From assembly GCA_019044685.2 (NCBI GenBank), contig JAGTXX020000006.1, forward strand, positions 2,375,501 through 2,439,500: a DNA stretch of 64,000 nt, in the 5' to 3' direction. Below are positions 48,617 to 55,204 of the stretch, one piece after another; the stretch's first letter is position 1, and each line of letters begins with the position of its first letter. A program made the translations under genes and the position numbers. Source of the stretch: Nannochloris sp. 'desiccata'. Lineage: Eukaryota; Chlorophyta; Trebouxiophyceae; Chlorellales; Chlorellaceae. Under the pieces are notes generated by a model that had not been told where the DNA came from, made no database searches, and worked only from the letters and a program-made list of their open reading frames with translations.

Positions 48617-51600
48617 TTATTCATAAGAAGAGACGACCCAATGAGATCTAGTACTATCAGGGTGCAAAAAGGGGTGGTTGAGGGGAACCACCTGTAACCA
48701 AGCAGGCGGTAAGACACCAAGAGAAGCAATTTCAGTAAGGCCAGACCAGAATTCAGCCAAGACAACTTGACTGACTGAAGCTATCATTGCAGGTCCAGGA
48801 GCCATAGGAGGACGGTGGATAGAGCCAGTAGTACGAGAGGAGCGAGCACGACCTCTACCGCCGCCTCTGCGACGAGCAGCTGAAACAGTAGCATGCTGAA
48901 GTTTAAGAACCCGGTCAAACCAATTCTTGCGCCCTGATTCGCAGGCAGCAAGTAATTTGATTGCTACAATGTCCCAAATACCTTGATGAAGCCTAGGGTG
49001 TGGCCTAATACCCATCCAAATATGACGGCGCTGCAGTAACCCAGGTGTTGGAATAGAAAAGTCATCACACAATTGCTGTTGCACCGCGAGCCATGTTGGC
49101 TGTACAATAGCACACTGGTGATAGAGATGGATACGGGTAGGTCCAATTGCAAGTCCGCAGCCACACTGGCGTGACTGTAGAAGAGGGAGGCTGTCAGCAG
49201 TAGGAATGCCATTAAGAACCAACCGCCAAAGCACTTCAAGGCTGCGGCCATCACAGGGGCGAGACCACATTCTGGAGAGCAGGCGTTGTACAGCACCTGG
49301 AGAAGGCTCAGTAGTGGGAGATACCAGTACCGAGAAGGAGCTCATAGGTGCTACCTGAGGAGCGGGGCGACTAGCAAGTTGGAGGATAGTGCCAACTTTC
49401 ACTTGGAAAGATGCCAAGTTAATAGTGCGGCGGCCAATCCTCCATCCCATGCAAGAAATCAGCATTTCGGCAGCAGCAGCAGATGTAGAAGATGCTTCAG
49501 CAATAGCAGCAGCTGTTGTGGATGCACCAGCCATCTCTACAGTGGAGCCGTCGTATAAAACAACTGGCGGCGTAACAGTAGTGATGGGCTGGAGAGGGGT
49601 GCCCTGAGCAGCTTCCAGCCATCCTTCAGGAAGAAGAGTACACACATGGTGTATTGCTACATCGACGTATAACTTGAGATCAGAAAGAGAGCGAGTAGTA
49701 GCAGCTACATGTGGAGAAATGGGAGAGAGGATGCCATGTTGGCCAGGGAATTTCAGAAACTGCCTTCGCTGCTCATATTGACCAGGAGCCCAAGTCTCCA
49801 GATCCAATCTTAGGCGCAGCAAATCTCCGAAAGTAATAATAGCAGGGCAGGCAATAGTCCCAAGATTAGGGCATCGTTGGCTGTGCTCCAAGGCGACGGC
49901 TCCGTTATCCAACAACAAAGGGTTACTCCAGAGAGGGAGAGCAGCACACCAAGGACCAGCTGGCACTGGAGCAACGATTGAAGGACGCGGTAAAGCTCTG
50001 AGCGCAGAGCACAATCTCTCAAGAACAACAGGAACCTCTGCGACACCTAGATGAGCAGCGAGGCTAGTGGCAGGGCGAGTCAACAGGACCAGCTGAGGAC
50101 ATGGGAAAGGCACAGCGACACCATATTGTCCAGGATCGCTTTTGACTGTGGATAGAAGGTGCGAGAGAACAGATCGAGCTACGCGTATCCATGGTGTAGT
50201 GGCAGAACCAGTAATCAGGCGCAAGGCCCACCAAGCTATTCTAGAGTTGACGTGCTCAGGCAACGGAAGCAGTCCAAGACCACCAAAGCGAGGGTGAGCA
50301 GGCATCAGAGCTCTGGAGATTCCTGAAAACCTTCTTTGGCTGGGACCCGATGAGGTAGAGATCCATGGGGGTAGCCGGAGGCAGATATCGCGATCTACAG
50401 CTGCAGGAAGCAGCCGCTCAAGGTAGTGGAGGTCACGACCCTCAGGCAACCCAGTGAATTGAGCAAAGTATAAAATCTTGGAAAGGGCATAGCTATTGAT
50501 AGCAAATGCTCTGCCAAAGGAAGAGAGTTTGCATTTAACAATCATATCCACTTTAGAGTGCACTCGCGTTAGCAACTCCACCCAGTCCACCGAGATCGCT
50601 CCCGTGAATTGAGAGAATGTCAAGCCCAACGCTGTGACAGAAGAGACTACTGGCAAACCGTGAATAGACTCAGGTAGAGGCTGCTCTGGAGGAGTGCCTA
50701 GGAAGAGAAGACGTGTCTTGGCAGGCTGCAAGTGCTGGCCAGAGGCTTGGGCAAAAATGGTCATAGCATCGAGGAAGGCAGGGATGTCTTCAGGGCCATT
50801 CAGCAACACTTTGGTGTCATCAGCGTGTTGTAATGCAGTAAGAGTCTCATCATCAATCTCGACACCAAAGCCTTTCTCTCTCAGCCACATCAAAGCTGCT
50901 TGAGCAACTAGGAGGTAGAGCGGCGGAGAGAGCGGACAGCCCTGTCTGGCTCCAGCGAGAAGAAGACGATAATCAGAGAGATAGCCATCAATAATGGCAG
51001 CAGAGCGAGTGTCAGTAAGCAATAGCTTCATCCACGAAACAAAATCTTCACCAAGTCCCATTTTGAGGGCTAAAGCAGACAAGAAGTTGCGATCGAGGGT
51101 GTCGTATGCTTTGCGGAAATCACAAAAGACCATGAGAGCAGAGCGATGATGCTGCTGGAGCCAAGCGGGCAGGAACTGCATTAGCATAGCCGTATCTCCT
51201 ATGTGCCGCCCTCTTAAGAACGCCGTTTGCACCGGATCGATGATTGTCGGGAGGACGGCACCGAGGCGGGAGCCCAAAGCGCGAGTGAGGACGCGATAAT
51301 CAGTACCAGTCAGGGAAATAGGGCGAGTATTTGCAATTAATAGACTATTTCCTGGTTTAGGAATAGAGGTAATGACACTTTTAAGGAAAGAACGGGGCGC
51401 TGAGCCGGACTTACCTATGGCGGTGAACACGCGTGAAAAAAGTGGGGCAAAACCCCGCCTAAAAGTCTTGTACAGCTTCATAGGGATACCATCTGGACCA
51501 GAAGCCGTATGAGGGCTGCATTTACGTAGCGTACTCAGAATTTCAGCTTCAGTAACATCAGACGAGCCTAGTTGTTGCACTGTCTGGGGTTGTAGCTGAG

Positions 51601-53179
51601 GCACTCCTTGAGCCTCAACAGCAGCTAGAACGGCAGTTTGAGCAGCCGCTGTGGTAGTAGGAGCAGCAGAGATACCAGCCCAGTAATCAATGACTACATT
51701 AGCACAACGAGCAGCAGAAGTTTGGAGAGTACCAGAGCTATCAAGCAGAGCAGGGATATTGACGTGTCTGCTTGCGCCAAGGATTTTAGTAAGACCGATC
51801 GAGGGGCGTTCTTTGGAATGAATCCAAGCTTTACGAGTTTTAGTCTGGTAAAAAGCTTCTAATTCCCTCTCAAGACGACCCAGTTCAGCCCTGACATGCG
51901 GAATTTCAGCGAGAGCAGCTCGGATAGAGACGGTGTCGTTCCCATTAACTTGGGAAGTGAGCGTTGCTAATGTATCACGAAGCGCCTCCACAGATGCACG
52001 ATGTTGGTTTTTGAAGAAGAAATCGCGATTCAAACTCCTGATTTTCCACTTCAATGTTTTAGACTTGAATTTAAGCCACCAGCGTTTTACTGCCTCGTCA
52101 GTAGTAGGGAGACTTGCTAGCCTCAAGTCCAGCCACTCTTCAAACTCTCGTGAAAGACAAGGATCTTTCATAAAAGAGATATTAAGACGAGGAGGTGCGT
52201 TAGGAGGGCGAGAAGAAGAAGCGGAAGAGTGTTCAAGGGACAGCGGCGCCAAGTGACAGACCACAACGGTGTGATCAGAATCATTAACACAACGACGCAG
52301 AGCTGATCTGAGAAGGTTAGAAGGGCAGACAACTTGAGTAGAAAGAGTGTCGGAGGTGTAAAAGCGGTCCAATCGAGAACCACAGTGACCATTAGGTTGG
52401 AGCCAGGTCATGTGGCGGGACGTCGGGTGCTGTAACCGAAACACGTCAACCAGAGTAGCCAAAGCTGGGAGAGCAGCCCAAACATTTGCAGTAGCCTCAG
52501 TAGTGGCAGTCGGCACCATAGCTTCACCTCCAACAGTAGTTAATCTATCTAAAGACGGATTGTGGACAAAGTTGAAATCACCTCCCCACACCAGCTGCCG
52601 CCTAGCAGCCACAGCAGAGGCAGCAAGGGGTACAAGGCGGTCCTGAAGAAACTGAGCACGCTCAGGGGCATGATTTGGGAGATAAAGACAAGCCATAGAT
52701 AGTTTATGACCCGCCCAATCAATATTGAGGGAAATAACACGCCCATCCTCGGGGCCGACACTGGCAGCGTCACCCACGAGGCGAACGGTGCCATCTCTGA
52801 TAAGGGATGTTCTAATAGCTATGGCAACGCCTCCTCTGCTGCGACCAGCAGAAATAGTAGAATCATCCAGCTCCTCAGAGGGGGTAGCAGTTGAAGAAGA
52901 TGCAGTAGAGGCAGAAATTGATGTAGTTTTGTAGCGCCAAAACACAGTCCAGCCACGGCCGTGCGGGCGGCGAGAAAATTTATTTGCAAAAGGTACAGAG
53001 TGGACCACAGAGGGGATCCAATGTTCTTGTATAAATACGATTCCTAAATGTAATTCATCCCACATTTGAGTAAAACGGGGAATGTTGTCAAGAGTCAAGC
53101 CTCGGACATTGTGGGTACCAAACCGTAAAGTAGGGCATCGAGCAACATCACCAGGCAGCAAGAGGGCATTTAGGGGCAT
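48617..53179 (-). CDS. LINE ORF2: AP endonuclease - reverse transcriptase
   Basis: 1520 residues from the ATG at 53179, two bases after the ORF1 stop. The N-terminal 260 residues are an APE-type endonuclease: GTHNVRGLTLDNIP, IFIQEHW-type motif (VFIQEHWIP), GGDFNFVHNPSLDR and DSDHTVVVCHLAP with the catalytic Asp/His. The reverse transcriptase follows with TASGPDGIPMKLYK, VFCDFRKAYDTLDR (motif A), RQGCPLSPPLYLLVA, and motif C written HADDTKVLL, with His where most elements have Tyr or Phe before ADD. The C-terminus has a Cys/His cluster (CGCGLAIG..RIHLYHQC) like the zf-RVT region, and a basic Arg/Gly stretch. No RNase H domain is recognised. The frame is uninterrupted. Confidence 0.95.
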   Translation of the reverse strand: MPLNALLLPGDVARCPTLRFGTHNVRGLTLDNIPRFTQMWDELHLGIVFIQEHWIPSVVHSVPFANKFSRRPHGRGWTVFWRYKTTSISASTASSSTATPSEELDDSTISAGRSRGGVAIAIRTSLIRDGTVRLVGDAASVGPEDGRVISLNIDWAGHKLSMACLYLPNHAPERAQFLQDRLVPLAASAVAARRQLVWGGDFNFVHNPSLDRLTTVGGEAMVPTATTEATANVWAALPALATLVDVFRLQHPTSRHMTWLQPNGHCGSRLDRFYTSDTLSTQVVCPSNLLRSALRRCVNDSDHTVVVCHLAPLSLEHSSASSSRPPNAPPRLNISFMKDPCLSREFEEWLDLRLASLPTTDEAVKRWWLKFKSKTLKWKIRSLNRDFFFKNQHRASVEALRDTLATLTSQVNGNDTVSIRAALAEIPHVRAELGRLERELEAFYQTKTRKAWIHSKERPSIGLTKILGASRHVNIPALLDSSGTLQTSAARCANVVIDYWAGISAAPTTTAAAQTAVLAAVEAQGVPQLQPQTVQQLGSSDVTEAEILSTLRKCSPHTASGPDGIPMKLYKTFRRGFAPLFSRVFTAIGKSGSAPRSFLKSVITSIPKPGNSLLIANTRPISLTGTDYRVLTRALGSRLGAVLPTIIDPVQTAFLRGRHIGDTAMLMQFLPAWLQQHHRSALMVFCDFRKAYDTLDRNFLSALALKMGLGEDFVSWMKLLLTDTRSAAIIDGYLSDYRLLLAGARQGCPLSPPLYLLVAQAALMWLREKGFGVEIDDETLTALQHADDTKVLLNGPEDIPAFLDAMTIFAQASGQHLQPAKTRLLFLGTPPEQPLPESIHGLPVVSSVTALGLTFSQFTGAISVDWVELLTRVHSKVDMIVKCKLSSFGRAFAINSYALSKILYFAQFTGLPEGRDLHYLERLLPAAVDRDICLRLPPWISTSSGPSQRRFSGISRALMPAHPRFGGLGLLPLPEHVNSRIAWWALRLITGSATTPWIRVARSVLSHLLSTVKSDPGQYGVAVPFPCPQLVLLTRPATSLAAHLGVAEVPVVLERLCSALRALPRPSIVAPVPAGPWCAALPLWSNPLLLDNGAVALEHSQRCPNLGTIACPAIITFGDLLRLRLDLETWAPGQYEQRRQFLKFPGQHGILSPISPHVAATTRSLSDLKLYVDVAIHHVCTLLPEGWLEAAQGTPLQPITTVTPPVVLYDGSTVEMAGASTTAAAIAEASSTSAAAAEMLISCMGWRIGRRTINLASFQVKVGTILQLASRPAPQVAPMSSFSVLVSPTTEPSPGAVQRLLSRMWSRPCDGRSLEVLWRLVLNGIPTADSLPLLQSRQCGCGLAIGPTRIHLYHQCAIVQPTWLAVQQQLCDDFSIPTPGLLQRRHIWMGIRPHPRLHQGIWDIVAIKLLAACESGRKNWFDRVLKLQHATVSAARRRGGGRGRARSSRTTGSIHRPPMAPGPAMIASVSQVVLAEFWSGLTEIASLGVLPPAWLQVVPLNHPFLHPDSTRSHWVVSSYE

Positions 53180-53181
53180 AT

Positions 53182-54732
53182 TTAATGTTGAGAAGGAGGA
53201 GCACCTCCATTTGTTTCTCCATCAGCAGGGGCAGGGGGTGAGTGGATTGGAGGGTCTTCCAAGTCAAAATCTTCAGCAGCAAGACTGACGCCAGACATGG
53301 AGTCATCGTCGTTTGAGGTGAGATCGGAGTCTTCAGCCATAGGATCATAGTCTTCATCGTCGTCCGTACCATCTTCAGATCCAGTTGTGGCAGCAGCCTC
53401 AGAGGATGTGGCTGCAGTAGGAGCTGCCCGGGCCTGACGATCGGGATTAATGCGAAGAGGTGGGAGATCAAGAGCACCACTAGGGGCTGCAGCAGCATCA
53501 ATAGTAGCAGCACCAGCCATACCAGCAAAGGTGCCAGCAAGAATTCCATGGACACCCGGGGTGACAATAGTGGTTCCAGCAACATGTCCAGCAGCTGGTT
53601 CAGTAGCAGAATGAATTGCAGCTGATTTGGCAGCGGCAGCCACAGTGGAAAGAGGAGAAGAGCGTGTGCGTACTTGTCCAGAGGGGCCGGCTCCATTGGC
53701 AGAGGTGACACCAGCAGCCGCAGCAGCAGCAGCAGCAGCAAGTGCTTTCGCTTCAGCCGCTTCCTTAGCAGCCTTGGCAATAGCAGCAGATTCTGCCTCT
53801 CGTTCGCGTTTCTTAGCAGCATGTTCAGCCAATTTTTGTAAGGCCGCTTGGCGCTTGGTTTCCACCGCGGCCTCTTGGGCAGAGACTTGCACTCTTTTCG
53901 AGCGTTTGGCGGTAGAAGGGCCAGGTGGCTGGGCGGCTCGAGCGGCAGCAGGAGCGCTCCTGCTAGCAGGGGGCTGGGAGACAGGAGAAGTAGATGAAGG
54001 TCGACGAGGGACGTTCCAGGCAGACGAGACAACAAGAGGGGGAGTAAGAGTCAACAAGTCTTGGTCAATGGCATCAGCAGTCCAAGTAGCGGAAGGCATA
54101 CGGACGTGGATAAGGTGAGTTTTACCTGCAAGACCAGGGAGCTGGAAGTCTGTGGGAATATCAGCAAGAGAGGAAGCTTTAAATTTGACAATAAGGCGGC
54201 CCTCTTGGGAGCTGTTGCTGGGACCAGAAATTTGCCGGACAATTGTGCAACGGCGACGGTCAGTTGAGAGGAAAGAAGCCAGATCAGCCTGATTAATATT
54301 GGCAGGCACGTTGATCAGTTCACGGGTATATTCTGCAGAATAGTTTTCCCAGGAGACACGCGCATCAACAAAAGTGATGCCACCTTCAACTTCAGCAGGC
54401 AAAGGCAGGGTGCCCGTGGCGGCAGTGGCAGCTTCGAGGCTGGGGACGGCCGCAGGGTGCTTGATAGTAAAACCCACACGCATATAGCCATCAACAGTGG
54501 TGTAAGAAGCATGCTCTGTGAGGTATTCACTCGGTTGCAAGGGGGCATCCGAGGGAATATGGGCGTGAATTGCCTTGGCGACAGCACGGGTAAAAAGAGC
54601 CCGTTGGTGCTGAGGCTCGAGCGCATAGCGAGCCTTAGCAGAGACCCGCAAAATTGGGTGGGAGTCCAAGTCCACGTCTTGGTAAAGACCGGGAGGAGGG
54701 TCCGTAAGGATGACAAGACGGCGGGGAGGCAT
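53182..54732 (-). CDS. LINE ORF1: RNA-binding-type protein
   Basis: 516 residues from the ATG at 54732. Such ORF1 proteins bind element RNA and chaperone it. The first 190 residues are folded-looking, with no obvious zinc knuckle. The middle has a strongly helical Ala/Glu/Lys/Arg segment (KLAEHAAKKREREAESA followed by an Ala run) likely to be a coiled coil. The C-terminus is acidic (DDDEDYDPMAEDSD) and Pro-rich. I assign it by position, two bases before ORF2, and by composition; no specific domain was recognised. The ORFs are separated by AT only, suggesting termination-reinitiation for ORF2. Confidence 0.85.
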   Translation of the reverse strand: MPPRRLVILTDPPPGLYQDVDLDSHPILRVSAKARYALEPQHQRALFTRAVAKAIHAHIPSDAPLQPSEYLTEHASYTTVDGYMRVGFTIKHPAAVPSLEAATAATGTLPLPAEVEGGITFVDARVSWENYSAEYTRELINVPANINQADLASFLSTDRRRCTIVRQISGPSNSSQEGRLIVKFKASSLADIPTDFQLPGLAGKTHLIHVRMPSATWTADAIDQDLLTLTPPLVVSSAWNVPRRPSSTSPVSQPPASRSAPAAARAAQPPGPSTAKRSKRVQVSAQEAAVETKRQAALQKLAEHAAKKREREAESAAIAKAAKEAAEAKALAAAAAAAAAGVTSANGAGPSGQVRTRSSPLSTVAAAAKSAAIHSATEPAAGHVAGTTIVTPGVHGILAGTFAGMAGAATIDAAAAPSGALDLPPLRINPDRQARAAPTAATSSEAAATTGSEDGTDDDEDYDPMAEDSDLTSNDDDSMSGVSLAAEDFDLEDPPIHSPPAPADGETNGGAPPSQH

Positions 54733-54860
54733 AATTAAGAAAAAATGCAGTCTCGGGGGGACAGTAAATTTTGAACAGAGTGAAATTGTTCAAACCCCAG
54801 CAAGCACCTGAAGATAACCACTCAGGAGAAGTCAAGCGCTATTTCTAGAGCAATATTGAG

Positions 54861-55116
54861 TGCGGAGCACTGTAATTGCGCGTAAATTTTTATTTTTTTA
54901 ATTTTTCACTGATGTTAGATGCGAAAAAAATCAAAAAGCAGCAGGTGCTCTTTGATCCCCTCCAGAAAGTACTATAGTGTTCTAACAGCTCTACTGTGTT
55001 ACAGAATTGATTTTTAGTTTTTTTAGAGCGCTAAATTTTTCGAAGAAATAAAAAAGTCGATAAAAAACGTATGGAACGACAAATCTCAATTGTATAAGTA
55101 ATCAATTGTCTTATAT
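54861..55116. other. AT-rich spacer between LINE and tRNA gene
   Basis: Contains runs of A and T. A TTATATA element at 55111-55117 immediately precedes and overlaps the start of the tRNA 3' half and may serve as an upstream TATA-type signal. No gene is seen. Confidence 0.4.
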
Positions 55117-55193
55117 AGAGGAAGTCGGGAGTTCGATTCTTCCCAGCTCCAGGTACGGGGCTGTGACTCAGTGGTAGCGTGTCTCTTTAGCAT
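55117..55193 (+). tRNA. Permuted tRNA-Ala(AGC): 3' half precedes 5' half
   Basis: The 3' half comes first (55117-55151): AGAGG anticodon-stem strand, AAGTC variable loop, T arm GGGAG-TTCGATT-CTTCC, acceptor CAGCTCC and discriminator A. After a 5-base spacer GGTAC comes the 5' half (55157-55193): acceptor GGGGCTG, TG, D arm ACTC-AGTGGTA-GCGT, G, anticodon strand TCTCT and loop TTAGCAT (anticodon AGC, 55189-55191). Joined 5'+3' this is a 72-nt tRNA: all seven acceptor pairs form, including G3-U70, the universal alanine identity pair. T8-A14, G15-C48, G18G19 and the T-loop consensus are present. D stem has one mismatch (T12 with C23). Flanks CAATT (55103-55107) and AATTG (55194-55198) can pair outside the anticodon stem, as expected for a splicing-endonuclease substrate. 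Exact cut sites are not fixed. Confidence 0.93.
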
Positions 55194-55199
55194 AATTGC

Positions 55200-55204
55200 T
55201 TTTT
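55200..55204 (+). terminator. RNA polymerase III T-tract terminator
   Basis: Five T residues follow the 5' half of the permuted tRNA by six bases, the right distance for Pol III termination of a circularised precursor. Confidence 0.7.

Follow-up and report, generated by a model that had tools for sequence, protein, structure and literature searches.

Anatomy of the tRNA-Ala(AGC) locus

A short segment of Nannochloris sp. 'desiccata' DNA, in which the 3′ half of a tRNA is encoded ahead of its 5′ half, raises the question of whether it is a working nuclear gene in a circularly permuted layout, and whether it stands alone in its genome. The locus lies in the window, that is, the whole 64,000-nt stretch of DNA analysed here, and comprises the following features.

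55116-55192, + strand: tRNA-Ala(AGC) gene with swapped halves (sequence reading, ARAGORN on the joined halves, R1 model)
55093..55096, + strand: TATA, 24 nt upstream of position 39, a possible promoter element only (sequence)
55103..55115, + strand: end of the leader, with CAATT at 55103-55107 (outer helix) and an A at -3 from the cut (sequence, pairing)
55116..55151, + strand: 3′ half, positions 38-73 (sequence, ARAGORN, R1)
55152..55156, + strand: intervening sequence GGTAC, 5 nt, the acceptor-loop spacer of the expected circular intermediate (sequence)
55157..55192, + strand: 5′ half, positions 1-37 (sequence, ARAGORN, R1)
55193..55198, + strand: trailer, T followed by AATTG (55194-55198), able to pair with the leader CAATT (sequence, folding)
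55200..55204, + strand: T5 tract, predicted RNA polymerase III terminator (sequence)

In the upstream half, position 38 is the T at 55116 and positions 39-73 occupy 55117-55151, running through the anticodon stem (AGAGG), the variable region (AAGTC), the T arm with the B box (GGGAG-TTCGATT-CTTCC), the acceptor strand (CAGCTCC) and the discriminator A. The downstream half contains the acceptor strand GGGGCTG, the D arm with the A box, the anticodon stem TCTCT and the loop TTAGCA with the anticodon AGC. The B box is thereby placed ahead of the A box, as had been proposed. The original prediction of a tRNA-Ala(AGC) gene whose 3′ half comes first and is parted from the 5′ half by only the five bases GGTAC is borne out by the reading of the sequence, by ARAGORN applied to the joined form (verdict tRNA-Ala(agc)) and by the covariance model R1 described below.

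The joined halves give a tRNA of 72 nt with all acceptor (7/7), T-stem (5/5) and anticodon-stem (5/5) pairs kept, and the G3-U70 and G15-C48 pairs and the consensus-fitting T loop are likewise present as claimed. The D stem (window 55166-55180) contains one mismatch, U12-C23, and A10-U25 replaces the G10 pair. The same 12-23 position is A-C in the Ala(CGC) gene of this genome, and the mismatch is absent in Ala(TGC). No CCA is encoded, GGTAC following directly on the discriminator A; the 5 bp of this spacer fall within the 1-74 bp span given in Table 1 of PMC3978253.

The flanks CAATT and AATTG and the T5 tract, also part of the original prediction, are found at the positions given above. At the junction, the leader A at -3 from the cut pairs with U32 to give the A-I pair, accompanied by three of the four central-helix pairs and by the outer CAATT/AATTG helix. 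Folding of the 102-nt precursor is no more stable than that of shuffled sequences (z -0.39), and the structure of lowest energy departs from a clean cloverleaf. The anatomical marks, as described in PMC3978253, support the assignment of the gene to type II, i.e. permuted at 37/38.

Detection in the window and search for a second Ala(AGC) gene

R1 was built from six conventional tRNAs of the same genome (Val, Gln, Met, His, Pro and Asp), which were freed of introns and permuted in silico, with the Ala(AGC) gene held out. In the 64 kb window its sole match at E ≤ 10 is 55117-55192, with 34 bits and an E-value of 1.5e-9; E-values of the R1 searches are rough, and those of strong matches may be off by orders of magnitude. 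When introns are barred, ARAGORN reports no ordinary tRNA anywhere in the window. Two Rfam models match the locus below their gathering scores: cyano_tmRNA (RF01851) recognises the acceptor/T-arm module at 23.2 bits (gathering score 70), and the YrlA Y RNA (RF02553) scores 23.0 bits (gathering score 69).

Whether a normal Ala(AGC) gene also exists, a question raised together with the prediction, was examined by pattern and similarity searches of the genome, and none turned up. The D-arm pattern CTCA-GGTA-TTAGCA occurs at two places in the 21.55 Mb, one being the Ala gene and the other a non-tRNA place. The pattern from TTAGCA to the T loop occurs at 63 places, 30 of which were cut out as loci and yielded no ARAGORN tRNA with introns allowed; one more is part of a permuted tRNA-Ser(AGA), and the remaining 32 were judged from the printed pattern matches only. 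DNA similarity searches of the genome return nothing beyond the Ala locus itself, whether the query is the locus or the joined tRNA. These searches score the best candidates only, and they could overlook a conventional Ala(AGC) gene if its D arm and T loop were odd. An apparent second Ala(AGC) called by ARAGORN in one locus (L121) is an artefact of the cut segment, as the longer sequence gives a permuted Thr(TGT). The alanine isoacceptors located are AGC, TGC and CGC, and all three are permuted.

Genome-wide census of permuted tRNA genes

The census of the 21.55 Mb, in 18 contigs, yields 30 permuted-order loci of 26 kinds, compared with 11 conventional loci. Among the tRNA genes located in this nucleus, more are permuted than conventional. 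The loci are distributed as follows.

Permuted: Ala AGC, TGC, CGC; Arg ACG, TCG, CCG, TCT, CCT; Asn GTT; Cys GCA; Gly TCC, GCC (2 copies); Ile TAT; Leu TAA, AAG, CAA; Lys CTT; Met CAT; Phe GAA; Ser AGA, GCT; Thr CGT, TGT; Trp CCA (3 copies, one damaged); Tyr GTA; Val CAC
Permuted order, decayed: one Leu-like locus
Conventional: Val TAC, Gln CTG, Met CAT, His GTG, Pro TGG, Pro AGG, Ser TGA, Ser CGA, Asp GTC, and two near-identical Ser GCT copies

The two conventional Ser(GCT) copies (L004, L005) look organellar by their sequence, and the permuted Ser(GCT) sits elsewhere. The census is incomplete, Glu and Thr(AGT) being among the genes located in neither layout.

Two routes led to these loci. 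The two Rfam models, used as baits, find two places (RF01851: Ala(AGC) and the permuted Ala(TGC)) and 12 places (RF02553), all 12 of which score 34-62 bits with R1, one of them via the overlapping locus L044. Because the same baits match 12 and 13, respectively, of 14 prokaryote controls at E ≤ 10, bait matches alone prove nothing, and only R1 and the cloverleaf count. To remove bait bias, an order-blind B-box search was made, in which GGTTCGANYCC matches 66 places and AGTTCGANYCT 39. The reversed patterns match 115 and 138 places; the B-box counts lie below these controls, and the B box alone is therefore no evidence. The 105 places reduce to 102 distinct loci, since the 66 include three palindromes that were each counted double. 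Sorting by R1, by ARAGORN with introns and by stem inspection gives 29 permuted-order tRNAs, 6 conventional ones (Met, His, Asp, Ser(CGA), Gln and Pro(AGG)) and 67 loci left unassigned. The Cys(GCA) gene, found with the RF02553 bait and missed by the B-box patterns, raises the 29 loci to 30. With introns barred, ARAGORN finds no conventional tRNA in 51 of the B-box loci, 13 of which hold permuted genes. As a control, ARAGORN was run on doubled segments and reported a tRNA for 14 of 15 permuted loci vs 4 of the 67 other B-box loci; of these four, L121 and L142 later turned out to be permuted Thr genes.

R1 scores reach at least 27 bits in 22 of the 26 permuted kinds, and Ser(AGA) scores 25.7. 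Lower values are obtained for Arg(CCG) (21.1), Thr(TGT) (14.1) and Thr(CGT) (10.8), to be read against the 22.2 bits that conventional loci reach; these three assignments are based on stem inspection and on what ARAGORN makes of the joined halves. All 26 joined forms are recognised as tRNAs by ARAGORN; since R1 or manual placement determined the half boundaries (manual in L040, L096, L105, L103, L074, L159, L142 and L164), this is a check and not an independent discovery. In the first 24 kinds the acceptor stem has 7/7 pairs, the best partner being chosen by script, and the spacers measure 5 to 73 nt. Both Thr genes carry a 6-67 T-T mismatch. All 26 kinds fit the 37/38 junction.

Several candidates were rejected. 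Pro(AGG) (L137), which scores 20.3 bits with R1, is conventional with an intron, and R1 scores of 20-22 bits are not decisive. The Pro(cgg) called by ARAGORN in L073 is a Ser(CGA) with an intron, as its variable arm and anticodon stem show. In four further loci (L139, L078, L120, L084) the T stem is paired, but a convincing partner half is lacking. An exact match to the permuted-Ala pattern was found neither in viral contigs nor in bacterial/archaeal contigs.

Copies and remnants accompany the census. The three Trp(CCA) copies on contig C8 (L097, L098, L099) are near-identical (98-99%) and all permuted; two of them lie ~1 kb apart in opposite orientation near the contig end, and L099 has extra bases in the acceptor strand. 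The Leu-like locus (L109/L161, C11:1726600-1727300), whose D arm is broken and which lacks a T tract, is a probable permuted tRNA pseudogene. At Thr(TGT) (L164, C16:206700-207500) the matched B box sits not in the gene but in an extra T-arm/acceptor-like piece directly upstream of the 3′ half, a piece resembling a decayed second 3′ half such as a tandem-duplication origin would leave. The intron of the conventional Asp(GTC) gene (L041, 925-1027) contains the B-box-like sequence GTTCGAGTCC. The end of contig C6 and contig C13 share near-identical segments in opposite orientation, with 98.6% identity over 2.5 kb at Ser GCT and 99.6% over 283 nt at Gly GCC, which may reflect a segmental duplication or a haplotig; no copy of the window was matched in the 40 kb sampled from C13 (318000-357999).

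Junction design and expected processing

The register of the junction was fixed beforehand by the A-I rule, which sets position 32 against the third leader base before position 38. In this register the leader pairs with positions 32-35 in 66 of 104 cases over the 26 kinds (60 of 96 for the first 24). When leaders are shuffled among the genes, 50.1 ± 3.6 pairs are obtained and 66 is reached in none of 20,000 shuffles; other offsets give 24-46 pairs. The A-I pair itself is present in 19 of the 26 kinds. Furthermore, every one of the 26 kinds has a tract of four or more T residues in the 30 nt that follow the 5′ half, compared with 15.7% of random 30-mers. The leader is thus coupled to an anticodon loop located some 75-150 nt later, which fits the need of a precursor cut by the splicing endonuclease and would be hard to explain if the loci were dead fragments.

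The locus is very probably a nuclear tRNA-Ala(AGC) gene of a trebouxiophyte-like green alga, circularly permuted at 37/38 and expected to be processed via a circular precursor. In the proposed pathway, RNA polymerase III (Pol III) would make one linear RNA, consisting of leader, 3′ half, GGTAC, 5′ half and trailer and ending at the T5 tract. The halves would fold together, and the leader and trailer would close the anticodon stem to form a relaxed bulge-helix-bulge. Cuts by the tRNA-splicing endonuclease after A37 and before U38 would be followed by joining of the ends into a circle by a ligase, after which RNase P and tRNase Z would excise GGTAC and CCA would be added. The circular precursor of Ala(AGC), like its transcription, circularisation and charging, is what we infer by analogy with processing in other algae.

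Alternative explanations

One alternative is that the locus is the remnant of two tandem tRNA-Ala genes whose outer halves were lost, the leftover being a dead pseudogene. Tandem duplication followed by loss of the outer halves is indeed one origin route proposed for permuted genes in PMC3978253, the D stem of Ala(AGC) does contain a mismatch, and decayed permuted-order loci exist in this genome (the Leu-like locus and the damaged Trp copy). A dead leftover is nevertheless improbable, given that the acceptor, T and anticodon stems, the T5 tract, the A-I pair and the outer helix are all kept, that the genome searches found no replacement Ala(AGC) gene, and that 26 kinds have the same layout with junction pairing above every shuffle.

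Chance resemblance or an assembly artefact would have in its favour that the earlier reading was made by eye, that R1 assigns up to 22.2 bits to conventional loci and that the Rfam baits match most prokaryote controls (12/14 and 13/14). It is scarcely credible in view of the E-value of 1.5e-9 obtained in 64 kb from a model without the Ala gene, and of 26 kinds at 30 places on many contigs sharing one junction design, which is not one assembly error.

Another permuted tRNA-like RNA, namely a two-piece tmRNA or a YrlA-type Y RNA, as the matches to cyano_tmRNA and YrlA might suggest, has a negligible probability, since both scores are far under the gathering scores, the joined halves make up a full tRNA including an anticodon, and the same two models match other permuted tRNAs of the genome.

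Promoter elements and TFIIIC

The placement of promoter elements was inspected in the first 24 permuted kinds. An upstream TATA-like or AT-rich promoter is reported for Cyanidioschyzon merolae, where a TATA-like sequence lies upstream of most permuted genes, and is described as vaguer in green algae, according to PMC3978253. Here, TATA occurs within 60 nt upstream in 7 of 24 kinds vs a background of 18%, which is no enrichment; a TATA-dependent promoter, as in the C. merolae model, is thus unsupported as a general rule. Outside boxes restoring the normal order gain no support either, with an A box upstream in 2 of 24 kinds (background 4%) and a B box downstream in none of 24 (background 2%).

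A putative homologue of the largest TFIIIC subunit was found (L122, C1:137888; B-block match E 1.1e-8). A 673-aa piece of this TFIIIC-like protein matches WH_GTF3C1_N and B-block_TFIIIC. Because the B-block family also matches 4 of 14 prokaryote controls, the identification relies on the GTF3C1 winged-helix match. Among solved structures, the protein matches only a designed protein (E 6e-4) and no TFIIIC. This alga thus appears, from domain matches, to encode a GTF3C1-type TFIIIC subunit, so that permutation coexists here with such a subunit; in C. merolae, by contrast, no TFC1/TFC3 homologue is identified, according to PMC3978253.

A LINE and short elements with the same 5′ terminus upstream of permuted genes

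Upstream of the Ala gene the window holds a LINE on the opposite strand.

48617..55016, - strand: LINE (non-LTR retrotransposon), from ORF domains and homology to the LINE beside the Phe gene; 48617 is the ORF2 limit
48617-53179, - strand: LINE ORF2, with endonuclease and reverse transcriptase domains (domain match)
53182-54732, - strand: LINE ORF1 (no Pfam match)

This LINE matches the Phe-side copy from ~55016, 101 nt upstream of position 39 of the Ala gene, a distance given by the end point of a local alignment; it is without the first ~470 nt of the Phe-side copy. Elsewhere, divergently oriented elements with a common sharp 5′ terminus lie upstream of permuted genes (L052, L053, L056, L159), with the terminus at -90 (Cys), -90 (Phe), -87 (Arg(TCT)) and -103 (Arg(CCG)) relative to position 39. 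The Phe copy is a LINE, which at 0.76 kb inwards encodes a stretch 52% identical to the window ORF1. Over ~400-420 nt the Cys copy resembles four copies that lie away from tRNA genes, and all five have only ~140 nt (79%) in common with the Phe copy; these Cys-type copies may be short non-autonomous relatives of the LINE. The Arg(CCG) element is in view over 114 nt, and the Arg(TCT) site is a composite that also contains another partial copy and 350 nt that are 98.6% identical to the window ORF2. Scanning 15 loci with Rfam gave no name for the element beside Cys and Phe.

An element occurs within 300 nt upstream of 4 of 13 permuted loci vs 0 of 8 conventional ones (His has one at -762); 14 small loci were compared over 118-128 nt upstream only. 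Eight intact termini are found, four of them at permuted tRNAs, in a sample biased by loci chosen for their tRNAs. The fair count is for this reason that of the six copies reached through the order-blind pattern, which are six of the 67 unassigned B-box loci: two of the six lie at permuted genes (Cys and Phe), and four have no recognised tRNA within 330 nt. For a random insertion, the expected chance of landing in such a position is about 1 in 10^5 (30 genes, ~20 nt, one orientation, 2 x 21.55 Mb). Insertions recur at a set distance and in one orientation ahead of tRNA genes, which is the mark of a Pol III-gene-targeting LINE. By analogy, the LINE and the short elements may be green-algal non-LTR elements that target Pol III genes, and they would mark the permuted genes as sites where Pol III complexes assemble.

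The analogy is with TRE5-A, a LINE of Dictyostelium that also inserts at a set distance upstream of tRNA genes and whose targeting is attributed to Pol III complexes in PMC5391098 and PMC5911963. The distance given there is ~47 bp upstream of tRNA genes, vs 87-103 nt from position 39 here. Moreover, most copies seen here are short elements with only the 5′ terminus of the LINE, unlike TRE5-A, and the likeness drawn is one of behaviour.

Comparison with known permuted tRNA genes

By 2014, 34 permuted tRNA genes were known in six algae and one archaeon, the largest share listed being 11 of 43 tRNA genes in C. merolae (PMC3978253); one nucleomorph with permuted tRNA genes is added in PMC4494063. 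In Ostreococcus, Micromonas and the Bigelowiella nucleomorph, as here, the 3′ half lies upstream, nearly all junctions are at 37/38 and of hBH type, and the spacers are short (5-64 bp, with 5 bp, as in Ala(AGC), listed for the Bigelowiella nucleomorph). These genomes are listed with 2-6 permuted genes each and no permuted Ala(AGC) (PMC3978253), compared with 26 kinds located in this nucleus. C. merolae resembles the present case in layout, in the downstream T tract and in having a permuted Ala(TGC), and charging and circular intermediates are reported for its permuted tRNAs; its junctions, however, fall at four positions, whereas all 26 kinds here fit 37/38 (PMC3978253). The archaeon Thermofilum pendens also has permuted genes with very short spacers (1 and 7 bp), but with the junction at 59/60 and CCA encoded (PMC3978253).

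The nearest named homologues found for the present genome come from green algae such as Picochlorum, Micractinium, Chlorella and Parachlorella, which are trebouxiophytes. Within the trebouxiophytes, Auxenochlorella UTEX 250-A is described as having permuted nuclear tRNA genes, which came to light once the set found by tRNAscan-SE proved incomplete (PMC12636532; preprint PMC12633428). The earlier statement that permuted tRNAs are known only in a few lineages is accordingly fair, with trebouxiophytes already included through Auxenochlorella (PMC12636532). The kind of gene is thus known from Cyanidioschyzon, prasinophytes and Auxenochlorella, and what is new here is the host, the scale and the association with elements. 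Among open-access titles and abstract openings, no report of a permuted majority or of retrotransposon targeting of permuted genes was found.

Implications

Taken together, we lean towards a joint reading in which the permuted layout is the nuclear default, a TFIIIC B-block protein is retained, Pol III assembles on genes with the B box before the A box, and LINE-type elements land ~90-100 nt upstream. The default refers to 26 of 35 nuclear-looking kinds, with Met(CAT) counted once per layout and without the two organelle-like Ser(GCT) copies. If true, this reading would separate permutation from TFIIIC loss and would count against the idea that broken-up tRNA genes hide from mobile elements.

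Permuted genes have so far been minor exceptions, and a nucleus with a permuted majority makes open questions testable. Loss of TFIIIC is apparently not a condition for permutation, and the upstream elements suggest that permutation is not a shield from mobile elements. It may now be asked how Pol III starts transcription on genes whose B box comes before the A box, and how permutation comes to pervade a whole tRNA set. Ordinary tRNA finders, finally, can miss many of the tRNA genes of a genome.
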